64,000 bases of DNA from the NCBI RefSeq assembly GCF_014207355.1, contig NZ_JACHEF010000005.1:124001-188000 (forward strand), written 5' to 3'. Every line of letters begins with the position of its first letter. Position 1 is the first letter of the stretch. Shown piece by piece: positions 59,200 through 64,000 of this stretch. Both the position numbers and the translations under genes were made by a program. Origin of the DNA: Mesorhizobium sangaii. GTDB lineage: Bacteria > Pseudomonadota > Alphaproteobacteria > Rhizobiales > Rhizobiaceae. The notes beneath the pieces are model-generated. The model saw nothing but the letters and a program-made list of their open reading frames with translations, was not told where the DNA came from and did not search any database.

Positions 59200-59607
59200 T
59201 CACTTCACCTCGAACTGCGGATCGACCGGGATCTGCATCGCCGTGACCATATGATTGGTCTGCCCGGCGAGCCCAATGATCGACACCAGTTCGCCATGCT
59301 GTGCATCGGTCATGCCTTTCGCACGGGCGGCGGCGGTGTGCGAGTGGACGCAATAGGAGCAGCCATTGGCGGTCGACACCGCGATATAGATCATCTCCTT
59401 GGTCAATGGATCGATGGCGCTGTCAGCGACCATCACCACCTTCAGCTGTTCCCAGATCCGCTTCAGCGCCGGTGGATCATTGGCCAGCCCGCGCCAGAAA
59501 TTGTTGACGAAATCGGATTTGCGCGTCGCACGGATGTCGTCGAACACCGCCTTCACAGCCGGGATTTTCTCCACCTCGGTATCGCTCAGAAGTTTCGTCG
59601 TGGCCAT
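59200..59607 (-). CDS. Carboxymuconolactone decarboxylase/AhpD-like protein
   Basis: Small all-helical protein of 135 residues. The redox motif GCSYCVHSHTAAARAKGM (Cys-x-x-Cys followed by His) is typical of AhpD-like peroxidase members rather than true carboxymuconolactone decarboxylases. The preceding Glu (LTKEMIYIAVSTANG) is the conserved proton-relay position. It may act in peroxide or dithiol chemistry. AGAGGA lies upstream of the ATG at 59607. It lies 30 bp before the GNAT gene on the same strand and they may be co-transcribed. Confidence 0.88.
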   Translation of the reverse strand: MATTKLLSDTEVEKIPAVKAVFDDIRATRKSDFVNNFWRGLANDPPALKRIWEQLKVVMVADSAIDPLTKEMIYIAVSTANGCSYCVHSHTAAARAKGMTDAQHGELVSIIGLAGQTNHMVTAMQIPVDPQFEVK

Positions 59608-59760: not shown

Positions 59761-61257
59761 CTAGTGAACCGCCGCGTACATGATCTTTTCCTCTGTGGCC
59801 TCCGCCGGCGAAAACTCTTCGACGATGCGGCCTTGCCGGCAGACCAGGATGCGGTCGGACAGGTTCATGATCTCCGGCAGGTAGGAGGAAATCACGACGA
59901 CAGCCAAGCCCTCGTCGGCCAGCCGGTTGATGATCTGGTGGATCTCGGCGATCGCGCCGACATCGACGCCGCGCGTCGGTTCGTCGAAGATGACGACGCG
60001 CGGCTGCTGCACCAGCCCCTTGCCGATCACCACCTTCTGCTGGTTGCCGCCGGACAGCTCGACGACGCGCGCATTGTCGTTGATCGCCTTGATGTTAAGC
60101 GTTTTGGTCCATTCGGCTGACAGCGCGCGCATCTCCTGCTGGTTGATCACCCAGGCCTTTTCGCGGCCCGCCGCCAGCAGCCCGCCGAACAGGTTCTCGG
60201 CAATGCCCATCGTCTCGAAGATGCCCTCGCTCTTGCGGTCCTCGGTGACATAGACGATGCCGTCGGCCACGGCCTCGCTCGGCACGAGATAGCGCACTGG
60301 CCTGTCATCCAACTCGATCGCCCCGCCACGCAGGAAATCGCGCTTGTAGATGCCGGAGACGATCTTGAAGGTCTCGGTGCGGCCAGAACCGATCAGCCCG
60401 AACACGCCGGTGATCTGGCCCTCGAAGATCGAGAACGAATTGTTGCGCACGACATTGCTCATCGAAATGTCCTGCACCGACAGCACCTTCTTGCCGGCCT
60501 TGCGCAATTTCGCTTCGTCGCGCTGCCGGTAAATCTGCCCGGACAGTGTTCTCCCGACCATGGCGGCGACGATCCGGTCGCGGTCGAAGGCGGATGTGTC
60601 GTCGGTGACAACCAGCTCGCCATCGCGCAGGATGGTGATGCGATCGGCAATCATCAACGCCTCTTCCAGCGCGTGGCTGATGAAGACGATCGACACGCCA
60701 TTCGCCTTCAGCCGCCGGATCAACGCGAAGAAATGCCGTTTCTCCTCTGGCGTCAGCGTCGCCGTCGGCTCGTCGAAGATGATGACCTCGGCATTGTGGT
60801 GGACGGCGCGCGCGATCTCGACCATCTGCCGCTTGGCGGCACCCAGCGTCGACACCATCGCGTTCGGGTCGACGGGAAAGTTGAGGGACTGCAGGAATTG
60901 CTGCGCCGAAATGTAGGTGCCACGCAGCCGGTTGAGGAATTTCTCGGTGCCGAGATAGAGGTTCTGCGCCACCGTCATCGACGGCACCAGGCTGGTTTCC
61001 TGGAACACCATGGCAATGCCGGCTTCGAGCGCCGCATGCGGCGAGGCGTAGGCAATTTCGGCGCCCTTGTGGAACATTCTGCCGGAGGTGGCGTCGACGA
61101 CCCCGGCGACGATTTTGGTCAGAGTCGACTTGCCCGCACCGTTCTCGCCGAGCAGCGCGTGGATCTCGCCCTTGCGCAGGTCGAAGCTGACGTTTTTCAC
61201 CGCGGGCACGCCGCGATAAGTCTTGGTGACATTTTCCAGGCGAATGATCGGTTCCAT
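59761..61257 (-). CDS. Sugar ABC transporter ATP-binding protein (CUT2/RbsA-like, two domains)
   Basis: Cytoplasmic ATPase of 498 residues with two fused domains. Domain 1: Walker A GENGAGKST, Q-loop MVFQETSLVPSMTVAQNL, signature-like LGAAKRQMVEIARAV and Walker B VIIFDEPTATLT. Domain 2: degenerate Walker A GLIGSGRTE, signature LSGGNQQKVVIGKGL and Walker B VVIFDEPTRGVD. The ATG at 61257 overlaps the stop of the upstream SMP-30-like gene (TGATG), so translation is coupled. It is the last gene of a leftward operon that includes a permease-propeller fusion. A longer open frame to 61896 is spurious. Confidence 0.93.
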   Translation of the reverse strand: MEPIIRLENVTKTYRGVPAVKNVSFDLRKGEIHALLGENGAGKSTLTKIVAGVVDATSGRMFHKGAEIAYASPHAALEAGIAMVFQETSLVPSMTVAQNLYLGTEKFLNRLRGTYISAQQFLQSLNFPVDPNAMVSTLGAAKRQMVEIARAVHHNAEVIIFDEPTATLTPEEKRHFFALIRRLKANGVSIVFISHALEEALMIADRITILRDGELVVTDDTSAFDRDRIVAAMVGRTLSGQIYRQRDEAKLRKAGKKVLSVQDISMSNVVRNNSFSIFEGQITGVFGLIGSGRTETFKIVSGIYKRDFLRGGAIELDDRPVRYLVPSEAVADGIVYVTEDRKSEGIFETMGIAENLFGGLLAAGREKAWVINQQEMRALSAEWTKTLNIKAINDNARVVELSGGNQQKVVIGKGLVQQPRVVIFDEPTRGVDVGAIAEIHQIINRLADEGLAVVVISSYLPEIMNLSDRILVCRQGRIVEEFSPAEATEEKIMYAAVH

Positions 61258-62312
61258 CAAAAACCTCCCGAGGCGAGGTCGACGGACAACACGCAGTCGC
61301 CGCCCCTGGAGGCGATGAACAGAAGGCCGGCCTTTTCGGCAACGCTGCAAATGCCGTGGCGCGTGCCGTTGGCGCGGCTGTGCAGGCTGAATTGCGGCTG
61401 CAGCTTCTGGTCGAGCCTTACTACCAGCCCGTAGGAGCGGCTTGGCGACCAAGGCTTGTGGATGCCCATGGTGCGGATGCCGCCGCATTGCAGCGGTTCG
61501 AGGAAGCTGCGGCTGGAAGCCAGCGCCGGCGCGATCCAGTAGGCCGGCGGCACCTGCTCGATCATGTCCTGCCGGTAGTGCGTTTCCTGCAGCACGAATT
61601 CGATCAGCCGGTTGCGCGGCGCAAACAAGGTCAGCCATGCCCCGCCATCGGCGGTCCGTGACAGCCGTGCGGGATAGCCGGGCAGATGCGCCAGCACCGT
61701 CGAGCGGTCGCCGGTCGCGCCGTCGAAGCGGACGAGTTGGTGGCGCCAGCTTTCGCTGACCAGCACATCCCGCCCCATGGGATGGAGCCCATAGGGAAAG
61801 GCGATCTCGCCGGCCACCTTGCGGAAGTCGCCGCCCGCCACGTCCCGCTTCCACAGCGAACCGGATGCGCCCATCTTCATCAGGTCGGCGGCCCATTGCG
61901 ACGGCGCGTGTTCAGCCGAACCATTGGCCAGCCACAGCGTGCCGTCGTCTGCATAGGCAAGTGCGGTGATGCAGCCGATCCCGGCCGGCAGCGAAACCTC
62001 CTTACCGGCAATCAACAGCCTGCCGCTCTCCAACCCGACCGTCAGTTCGCCTGATGGCGACAGCGCCAGCGCCGTGACCGGAGATGAAAAGGTCTCGACC
62101 ACGGTGGACATGGCGCCGGCCGCAATAGCGTGGATGGCATTGCCGCTGGAGGCCAACAGCCTGTCGCTGGAAACCAGCAGATTGTCTGGCTCGGTCATCT
62201 CGGCGAAAGCCGGCGCGTCGTCCAGCCGCGTGTTGGGGCGGAAGGCGCCGTCGAGCGGCGGAATGGTCACCGCCTTGCCGCGAAACAGGTCAAGCACCGG
62301 ATCGAGGATCAT
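61257..62312 (-). CDS. SMP-30/strictosidine synthase-like beta-propeller protein
   Basis: Protein of 351 residues with repeated blade-like segments (VTALALSPSGELTVGLESGR, ITALAYADDGTLWLANGSAE, FPYGLHPMGRDVLVSESWRH, LPGYPARLSRTADGGAWLTL), matching the SMP-30/gluconolactonase/strictosidine synthase propeller group. No signal peptide or membrane segment is visible, so it is probably cytoplasmic. It overlaps the upstream permease-propeller fusion gene by 4 bp (ATGA) and the ATPase gene by one base. Members hydrolyse sugar lactones or related esters; metal ligands cannot be assigned with certainty here. Two propeller units in one transporter operon imply the solute is imported as, or converted through, a lactone. 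Confidence 0.82.
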   Translation of the reverse strand: MILDPVLDLFRGKAVTIPPLDGAFRPNTRLDDAPAFAEMTEPDNLLVSSDRLLASSGNAIHAIAAGAMSTVVETFSSPVTALALSPSGELTVGLESGRLLIAGKEVSLPAGIGCITALAYADDGTLWLANGSAEHAPSQWAADLMKMGASGSLWKRDVAGGDFRKVAGEIAFPYGLHPMGRDVLVSESWRHQLVRFDGATGDRSTVLAHLPGYPARLSRTADGGAWLTLFAPRNRLIEFVLQETHYRQDMIEQVPPAYWIAPALASSRSFLEPLQCGGIRTMGIHKPWSPSRSYGLVVRLDQKLQPQFSLHSRANGTRHGICSVAEKAGLLFIASRGGDCVLSVDLASGGF

Positions 62313-64000
62313 GACGCCGCCCCCCAGTAGGAAGCGGGGCTGGTCCAGTTCGGGTCGGCGCCTGATATCTTGTAGCGACCGATGCGGTTGTTGAGGATGC
62401 CGCCGACGAACAGATACCCCTTGTGCTCGCGCATCGAGGTGACCATCGGGTGCGCGCCACCGGTGAGGTCGCCCATCGCCTCGACGATGCCGCCCTTTTC
62501 GTTGAACTTCACCACGCCGCCGGTGTTGATGTTGGGGAACAGCCATTCATCTTGCGGCAGCCGGCGCGTCATGCGCTTGCGCATGTCGGGGTGGCGCAGC
62601 GACAGGTCGAAGCTCGGCGTGCGCATGCCGAGCCACGCCATCCAGTAATTGCCGTCGGAGGCGCGGTTGATGTTGTCGGGGTAGCCCGGCATGTCGCGGA
62701 TGACGCATTCGGCGGTATCCGCCTTCGGCCCTTCCAGCCAGTAGCGGTGCACGCGACAGGCCCAGCTTTCGGCGAAGAACAGCGACTTGCCATCATGCGC
62801 CATGCACACGCCGTTGGTGTAGCGGTAGCCGTCGAGCAGGGTCTTGGTCGAACCGTCCTTCGGGTCGTAGACCAGCAGCCGGCCGGTGGCACGGTTCTCG
62901 ATCGAATCCAGCGCCCAGTCATGGGCGTCGTAACGCTTGGTCGAGTCGGTGAAATAGATACGGCCGTCGGGTGCCACGTCGCAGTCGTTGGGATCGCGCA
63001 TCCGCGCATCGTCGACGATCGAGGTCCAGGAGCGCGAGGTCTCGGCCGATAGGCGTTTCACCTCCCGATCCGGCGACACGGAATAGAGCCCCATGGCGCC
63101 GACACAGCTGATCAGGTTGCCTGATTTGTCGAAGGCTAGGCCGAGCGGAAAGCCGCCAATATGGGCAAACACTTCCGACCTGACATAGTCCGGCGCGAAG
63201 AAGCGGATGATCTCGCCATGGCGCGTACCGCAATAGAGATTGTCGTCGCGGTCGAGGATGACATCCTCCGGCCCTTCCAGTTCGCCAAGCCCGATATGGT
63301 CAGCTTCTGACAATCGATTATCGAGTTCGTATGGCGTGCCCGAACCGGGTGCCGCCGACTGGGTCGCGCCCATCCTGAGGTAGACCGGCGCGACATAGAC
63401 TTCGTTCAGCACCTTGTGCCGGTTCTTCAGCCAGCGGATGTCGATGGTCACCGCCACCGCCAGCATGATGCCGAGCACCATCTGGTTGGTTCCGGTGCCA
63501 TAGCCCAGCCGGATCAGCCCGTTGGTCATGGTCAAGACGATGATGGCGCCCATCAGCCCCTTGACCACCGAGCCGCGCCCACCGCCCAAGCTGACGCCGC
63601 CGACCACGGCCGCCGTCAGCGCCATGATCTCGAGATTGAGGCCGGTGCCCGGCCCTGCCCCGCTCAGGCGGCAAGCGATGAGAAAGCCGCCGATCGAGGC
63701 GCAGAAGCCGGAGAAGACATAGGTCATGAACACGGTGCGGCGCACCCGAATGCCGGCATTATGGGCCGAACGCCTGGAGCCGCCGACCGCCAGCACATGC
63801 CAGCCCGGCCGCGAACGCGTCAGCGCGATATGGGTGACGATCGCCAGGATGATGGCCAGCCAGACCGAGACCGACAGGCCCCAGAAGGTGCTGTCGCCGA
63901 TGAAGTCGAGCACATCCGACGTCGCCGTCGAGAGCTGCACGTCGGCGGCATAGGTGGTGACCAGGATGTCGAACAGCGCCCGCCCGAAGATGAAGGTGAC
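62309..64000 (-). CDS. ABC transporter permease (CUT2) fused to SMP-30-like beta-propeller, 5' end outside window
   Basis: The visible 563 residues start inside a CUT2 permease and the frame is open to the right edge. Permease part (about 1-215): HVLAVGGSRRSAHNAGIRVR, the cytoplasmic loop signature of RbsC-like proteins, then EIMALTAAVVGGVSLGGGRG and a last helix before RWLKNRHKVLNE, whose positive charge suggests a cytoplasmic end. Propeller part (about 230-563): LEGPEDVILDRDDNLYCGTR, HIGGFPLGLAFDKSGNLISC, DPNDCDVAPDGRIYFTDSTK, TNGVCMAHDGKSLFFAES and MPGYPDNINRASDGNYWMAW, typical of strictosidine synthase/SMP-30 proteins. The frame is continuous with no start or stop at the junction. It overlaps the next propeller gene by 4 bp. 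Confidence 0.88.
   Translation of the reverse strand, partial: VTFIFGRALFDILVTTYAADVQLSTATSDVLDFIGDSTFWGLSVSVWLAIILAIVTHIALTRSRPGWHVLAVGGSRRSAHNAGIRVRRTVFMTYVFSGFCASIGGFLIACRLSGAGPGTGLNLEIMALTAAVVGGVSLGGGRGSVVKGLMGAIIVLTMTNGLIRLGYGTGTNQMVLGIMLAVAVTIDIRWLKNRHKVLNEVYVAPVYLRMGATQSAAPGSGTPYELDNRLSEADHIGLGELEGPEDVILDRDDNLYCGTRHGEIIRFFAPDYVRSEVFAHIGGFPLGLAFDKSGNLISCVGAMGLYSVSPDREVKRLSAETSRSWTSIVDDARMRDPNDCDVAPDGRIYFTDSTKRYDAHDWALDSIENRATGRLLVYDPKDGSTKTLLDGYRYTNGVCMAHDGKSLFFAESWACRVHRYWLEGPKADTAECVIRDMPGYPDNINRASDGNYWMAWLGMRTPSFDLSLRHPDMRKRMTRRLPQDEWLFPNINTGGVVKFNEKGGIVEAMGDLTGGAHPMVTSMREHKGYLFVGGILNNRIGRYKISGADPNWTSPASYWGAAS

Follow-up and report, generated by a model that had tools for sequence, protein, structure and literature searches.

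An ABC permease whose reading frame runs on into a complete β-propeller raises two questions: whether the two parts form one genuine protein, and what a propeller related to hydrolases would do on an importer. The gene examined here enters a stretch of 64,000 nucleotides of Mesorhizobium sangaii (contig NZ_JACHEF010000005.1, positions 124,001 to 188,000 of the forward strand), referred to below as the window.

Layout of the permease-propeller gene and its operon

The fusion gene, FUS, lies only partly within the window. Its 5′ 432 bases lie past the window end and were read in the parent contig (locus L002, G000:C5:181000-197000; window coordinate = L002 coordinate + 56999), where the ATG start is found outside the window at window coordinate 64432 (L002:7433). 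An earlier interpretation made from the DNA alone (the sequence-only reading) had described a permease and a propeller in one uninterrupted frame, followed by an overlapping gene for a second propeller, PROP2, and by an ATPase gene overlapping that one in turn. The frame is indeed intact over 707 codons, with no stop at the junction or elsewhere, and the overlaps are as described: the start of PROP2 sits in a 4-bp overlap with FUS, and the PROP2 stop and the ATPase start share one base (Table 1). The parent contig carries five genes on the (-) strand in the order permease 1, solute-binding protein, FUS, PROP2, and ATPase.

Table 1. Positions of the FUS operon and of features within FUS, in window coordinates (residue numbers refer to FUS)
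Feature	Position	Strand	Basis or remark
FUS, permease-propeller fusion gene, 707 aa	62309-64432 (3′ part in the window, 62309-64000)	(-)	Reading frame, Pfam
C-terminal part of CUT2 permease domain, residues 145-345	63398-64000	(-)	Pfam PF02653 at 68-327; model helices
FUS junction/linker, residues 346-365	63338-63397	(-)	Conserved in alignment; P349 invariant in 34 fusions
Predicted six-bladed strictosidine-synthase-like (SSL)/N6P propeller, residues 366-707	62312-63337	(-)	Pfam Str_synth, SSL_N, SGL; AlphaFold model, which resembles TGW6 and strictosidine synthase in fold
Codon of E389, candidate metal ligand (aligned with TGW6 E59)	63266-63268	(-)	Alignment, conservation
Codon of N482, candidate metal ligand (aligned with TGW6 N167)	62987-62989	(-)	Alignment, conservation
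Codon of N540, candidate metal ligand (aligned with TGW6 N226)	62813-62815	(-)	Alignment, conservation
Codons of D586-N587, candidate ligand and base (aligned with TGW6 D271-N272)	62672-62677	(-)	Alignment, conservation
Permease 1	65594-66580, beyond the window	(-)	PF02653
Solute-binding protein	64507-65532, beyond the window	(-)	Peripla_BP_4, PF13407 at 126 bits
PROP2, second propeller, 351 aa, degenerate metal site	61257-62312	(-)	4-bp overlap with FUS (ATGA)
Double-NBD ATPase of the importer, 498 aa	59761-61257	(-)	Pfam ABC_tran (PF00005), two stretches; 1-bp overlap with PROP2 (TGATG)
CMD/AhpD-like protein, downstream	59200-59607	(-)	Profile match, neighbourhood; recurs beside related cassettes, outside the core

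Four Pfam families match FUS above their gathering cut-offs. The permease domain BPD_transp_2 (PF02653) covers residues 68-327 with 114.9 bits, against 95.9 bits for permease 1 (cut-off 26.8), and the propeller is matched by SSL_N at 369-411 (48.6 bits, cut-off 18.9), Str_synth at 482-568 (77.1 bits, cut-off 25), and SGL at 417-602 (61.2 bits). In the AlphaFold model (pTM 0.70), the last permease helix spans residues 313-345. The pLDDT is 64-68 over residues 331-350, comprising the end of this helix and the hinge, and about 90 over 351-370, so the model does not settle how the propeller sits relative to the channel. A PDB sequence search at E 1e-5 retrieved no solved relative of the permease, and the fold listing for FUS is filled by propeller matches and hardly probes the permease fold.

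Residues 333-345, after the last helix, contain 4-5 K/R and 0-1 D/E in each of 34 aligned fusions (means 4.7 and 0.3). Positive charge beside membrane helices marks their cytosolic side, according to the positive-inside rule. The fused propeller is therefore probably located in the cytosol, in agreement with the sequence-only reading, which had placed it there by charge. No obvious export signal was seen by eye in PROP2.

The operon resembles the CUT2 importers RbsABC, AlsABC, and AraFGH in its PF02653 permeases, its Peripla_BP_4 binding protein, and its single ATPase chain with two ABC domains, but it differs from them in having two permeases, one with a C-terminal propeller, as well as a free second propeller. 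The binding protein gave generic sugar-type matches only. The cassette scores well below the cut-offs of the NCBIfam models for sugar-specific permeases and ATPases, which leaves the importer with no assignable substrate.

Occurrence of the fusion and conservation of the cassette

The fusion is common and not peculiar to the genome of the window. Counted from the search table, it occurs in 76 of 119 genomes of the genus (in G073 the protein is split over two contigs), in 11 of 398 genomes of the phylum at E 1e-80, all from one class, and at no fewer than 566 places in species genomes. We kept 80 of these loci for study, selected by patterns of the fused propeller and not by PROP2; they include Yersinia proxima as well as MAGs of Thiotrichales, Arenicellales, Enterobacterales, and Xylophilus. 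Annotated plasmids contributed 16 records with the fusion, 15 of them with at least 80% query coverage and Pantoea and Paraburkholderia among them. In the FUS protein search, 3848 of 7997 scored candidates passed E 0.001, and each of the best 120, on which the domain check was made, has both permease and Str_synth and covers 99-100% of the query.

An artefact of assembly or gene calling, which absence of the fusion from relatives or a frameshift or stop at the junction would have indicated, thus has a negligible probability, and nothing was found to speak for it. Chance or assembly error is excluded because the relatives carry the fusion: hundreds of genomes and several complete plasmids have the same frame of about 700 codons, and the linker aligns in all 34 fusions with few gaps. 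Databases already contain the domain pair, both in entry names and among the Pfam architectures, so the sequence family as such is known to them; literature searches for this architecture brought up no paper that deals with a permease-propeller fusion by title or abstract.

PROP2 lies directly behind the fusion in all 80 kept loci. The five genes stand in order in 74 of them, and the outer genes are missing in five (L076, L104, L129, L131, L140) where the contig ends. One more has PROP2 in two pieces: L139 from Brucella pituitosa shows two overlapping frames at L139:10046-11196, an apparent frameshift or sequencing error. In the set of 33 loci L002 and L041-L072, PROP2 follows 33 of the 34 fusions, the exception being L047, which stops at a contig edge. 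Across 249 genomes of the order, FUS was found in 28 and PROP2 in the identical 28, neither being present in the other 221; the matches number 35 for FUS (E ≤1e-80) and 35 for PROP2 (E ≤1e-100), plus two FUS pieces at contig ends. Within the genus, the same 75 of 118 genomes have both and 43 have neither, the sets being compared by hand.

A permease split from a separate close propeller was not found among the matches in the 249 order genomes. Order matches of at least 50% identity are frames of 707 codons or more, or contig pieces (two in G662, and G640:C6, which reaches only 90 residues into the propeller before the contig stops). Matches in 13 further order genomes are standalone SSLs of at most 35% identity, and beside the eight standalone SSLs that we fetched there was no cassette gene except one ATPase-domain match at a locus edge (L161). 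Two related cassettes, L048:6943-11714 and L171:4404-9096, keep the gene order of the fused ones, but their permease 2 is unfused and lies between the binding protein and the ATPase, behind permease 1, with neither propeller present. They cluster together in the tree (99.8/100) among the fused cassettes, which would mean joint loss of the propellers; the outgroup branch is very long, however, so joint gain may apply instead. In two other genomes, two complete or nearly complete fusion cassettes from different family branches adjoin in one stretch (L044, G087:C27:15000-34900; L043, G118:C19:241000-260900).

Among the 32 of 34 cassettes with all six parts, the mean p-distances are 0.38 for the ATPase, 0.41 for the fused propeller, 0.52 for the permeases, 0.59 for the binding protein, and 0.60 for PROP2. 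By these values, the fused propeller behaves as a core part and PROP2 as a variable part. All distance matrices correlate with one another (0.66-0.92), in sequences that are related and hence not independent.

The genes around the cassette vary. Single-linkage clustering of neighbours in 81 loci (L002, L041-L072, L105-L152), with one representative annotated per cluster, gave CMD in 35 loci, LysR in 28, MDR in 26, aminotransferase in 20, SDR in 20, and aldehyde dehydrogenase in 10; the CMD gene of the window was missed by the gene caller used for the clustering and was tested separately. In other genera, cassettes in the ortholog group of the window frequently lie downstream of LysR, with a class IV aminotransferase, CMD/AhpD, and an MDR reductase on their downstream side. 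The genome of the window carries a 58% identical class IV aminotransferase elsewhere. Depending on the cassette, the flanking enzymes are class IV aminotransferase, MDR reductase, SDR, aldehyde dehydrogenase, or acyl-CoA genes. Because other cassettes have other enzymes, we claim no substrate from the neighbourhood; it points away from simple sugar-lactone catabolism without proving another substrate, and sugar lactones are not supported as the substrate of the importer.

In several genera (L114, L116, L120, L123, and others), genes for an RpiR regulator and for isochorismatase-like, glutamine-synthetase-like, and N-formylglutamate-amidohydrolase-like proteins lie upstream of the cassette on the opposite strand, a set that hints at amine chemistry. 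Past the window end, at L002:11347-13919 on the (+) strand, an ornithine-cyclodeaminase/mu-crystallin gene overlaps an aromatic amino acid lyase gene, and an MFS-transporter-like gene runs divergently from the pair.

The fused propeller and its paralog PROP2

The sequence-only reading had called the propeller SMP-30-like and hydrolysing. The propeller itself and the hydrolase superfamily stand, and its predicted six-bladed fold matches TGW6, strictosidine synthase, and DFPase. From sequence and model, the domain is best placed in the SSL subgroup of the N6P hydrolase superfamily and lies closer to SSL than to SMP-30: although SGL passes its cut-off, the best PDB sequence matches are SSL proteins. 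A gluconolactonase proper is not favoured, the SSL profiles and structures scoring higher.

A hydrolytic site is plausible from the alignment. All seven columns tested for the putative metal site are kept in 33 of 33 fusions, including four candidate metal ligands, one of whose positions is D or N (column 482, D in 27 of 33). Column 430, which we take from a mapping by hand to be the position of a PON1 His, does not keep this residue and has L in 28 of 33 fusions.

TGW6, the rice IAA-glucose hydrolase (PDB 8KG3), is the closest relative by sequence and by fold, tied in fold with strictosidine synthase, and has the same ligand positions. The FUS propeller differs from it by being fused to a transporter and by the prevalent D at column 482, where TGW6 has N; the TGW6 crystal showed no Ca2+. 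Strictosidine synthase proper lacks the metal ligands, whereas the ligand residues are present in FUS. SMP-30/gluconolactonase, PON1, and DFPase have the superfamily fold and ligand pattern in common with the fused propeller, with lower sequence and fold similarity to it than the SSL proteins. The ligands are E21, N120, N175, and D229 in DFPase (named in a PDB mutant title) and E53, N168, N224, D269, and N270 in PON1 (PMC6100192). DrSOD is another naturally occurring protein in which a calcium propeller lactonase is joined to an unrelated domain, in this case a Cu/Zn-SOD; unlike in FUS, where the partner is a transporter, this partner is a soluble enzyme, and the fusion is reported from Deinococcus only (PMC12362111).

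PROP2 is predicted to be a propeller as well (pLDDT 86.1, pTM 0.86), with strictosidine synthases as the best fold matches. Its homology to the fused propeller (hhalign probability 100, E 3e-40) marks it as a paralog, one that has lost the metal ligands, and both models have a matching helical stretch (FUS 606-630, PROP2 235-253). Pfam gave no match for PROP2 of the window at E 0.001, and 26 of 33 PROP2 proteins match Str_synth at E up to 1. At the ligand columns in FUS numbering, PROP2 has D/E at 389 in 32 of 33 sequences, no common residue at 540, A/G/S/C at 586 in all 33, and R at 587 in 32 with K in one. These columns rule out a second enzyme of the same kind. PROP2 has invariant residues of its own in the 33 sequences, among them R233, E243, W259, K286, S312-R313, and H319. 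Together with the lost metal site, this set indicates that selection maintains PROP2, though for a purpose different from the metal chemistry of the fused propeller.

Possible roles of the propeller pair

The most likely reading, to which we give about an even chance, is an importer with a cytosolic metal-dependent hydrolase paired with a pseudoenzyme. Permease 1, the solute-binding protein, permease 2, and the double-NBD ATPase would form a CUT2-type importer in which the C-terminus of permease 2 bears an SSL N6P propeller in the cytosol, and PROP2, the paralog with a dead metal site made in trans, would accompany it as in every complete case seen. The two propellers may form an active/pseudoenzyme module at the inner membrane face, where the fused propeller would hydrolyse a bond of the ester or lactone type, either in the solute as it arrives or in a close derivative, and hydrolysis would pull import in one direction. 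Whether the fused propeller acts on the imported solute is, to our mind, evenly balanced. A narrower version, in which it cleaves the solute leaving the channel while the dead partner, with Arg in place of a metal ligand, is a gate or an anion sensor, is tentative and somewhat doubtful. The ATPase of ABC importers sits beneath the channel exit, so that direct hand-over of solute to the propeller is not obvious. Against the hydrolase reading we also count TGW6 without Ca2+, the L at column 430, L048 and L171 without either propeller, and the fact that we found no member with a measured activity, metal, or substrate.

Because the fused propeller is conserved nearly as well as the ATPase while binding proteins and flanking enzymes vary, a generic or sensing role fits as well as a solute-specific enzyme. 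The strongest rival, although unlikely, is a sensor, in which the propeller pair would bind the solute or its product inside the cell and stop or start the pump (trans-inhibition) with no catalysis, the conserved Arg of PROP2 forming an anion or effector site. Such a role would suit a fused propeller kept across cassettes with differing binding proteins and neighbours, and a PROP2 selected for something besides the lost metal chemistry; the metal ligands, including D586, kept in 33 of 33 fusions are more than a binding site needs. The constancy of the propeller beside changing neighbour enzymes would also agree with hydrolysis of another molecule, an intracellular signal or inhibitor, the fusion merely fixing place or dose. 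We find this improbable, as dose alone hardly explains a joint and conserved linker in all 34 aligned fusions, nor the lack of split versions among the matches in the 249 order genomes. Similarly improbable is a scaffold role, in which the propellers would assemble or stabilise an asymmetric permease pair, with PROP2 substituting for the propeller that permease 1 does not have: each complete fused cassette observed has one fused and one free propeller for its two permeases, which would fit, but a scaffold needs no seven-residue metal site, and L048 and L171 do without both propellers.

Those two cassettes are natural controls for the role of the propellers. Classical ABC importers release their solute unchanged, and the preferred hydrolase reading, if true, would couple import to chemistry in one ABC machine. 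The widespread fusion with its constant dead twin makes it possible to test transport coupled to modification or to product sensing, and offers a way into hundreds of loci whose present names say no more than ribose transport permease, SMP-30 family protein, or hypothetical protein.
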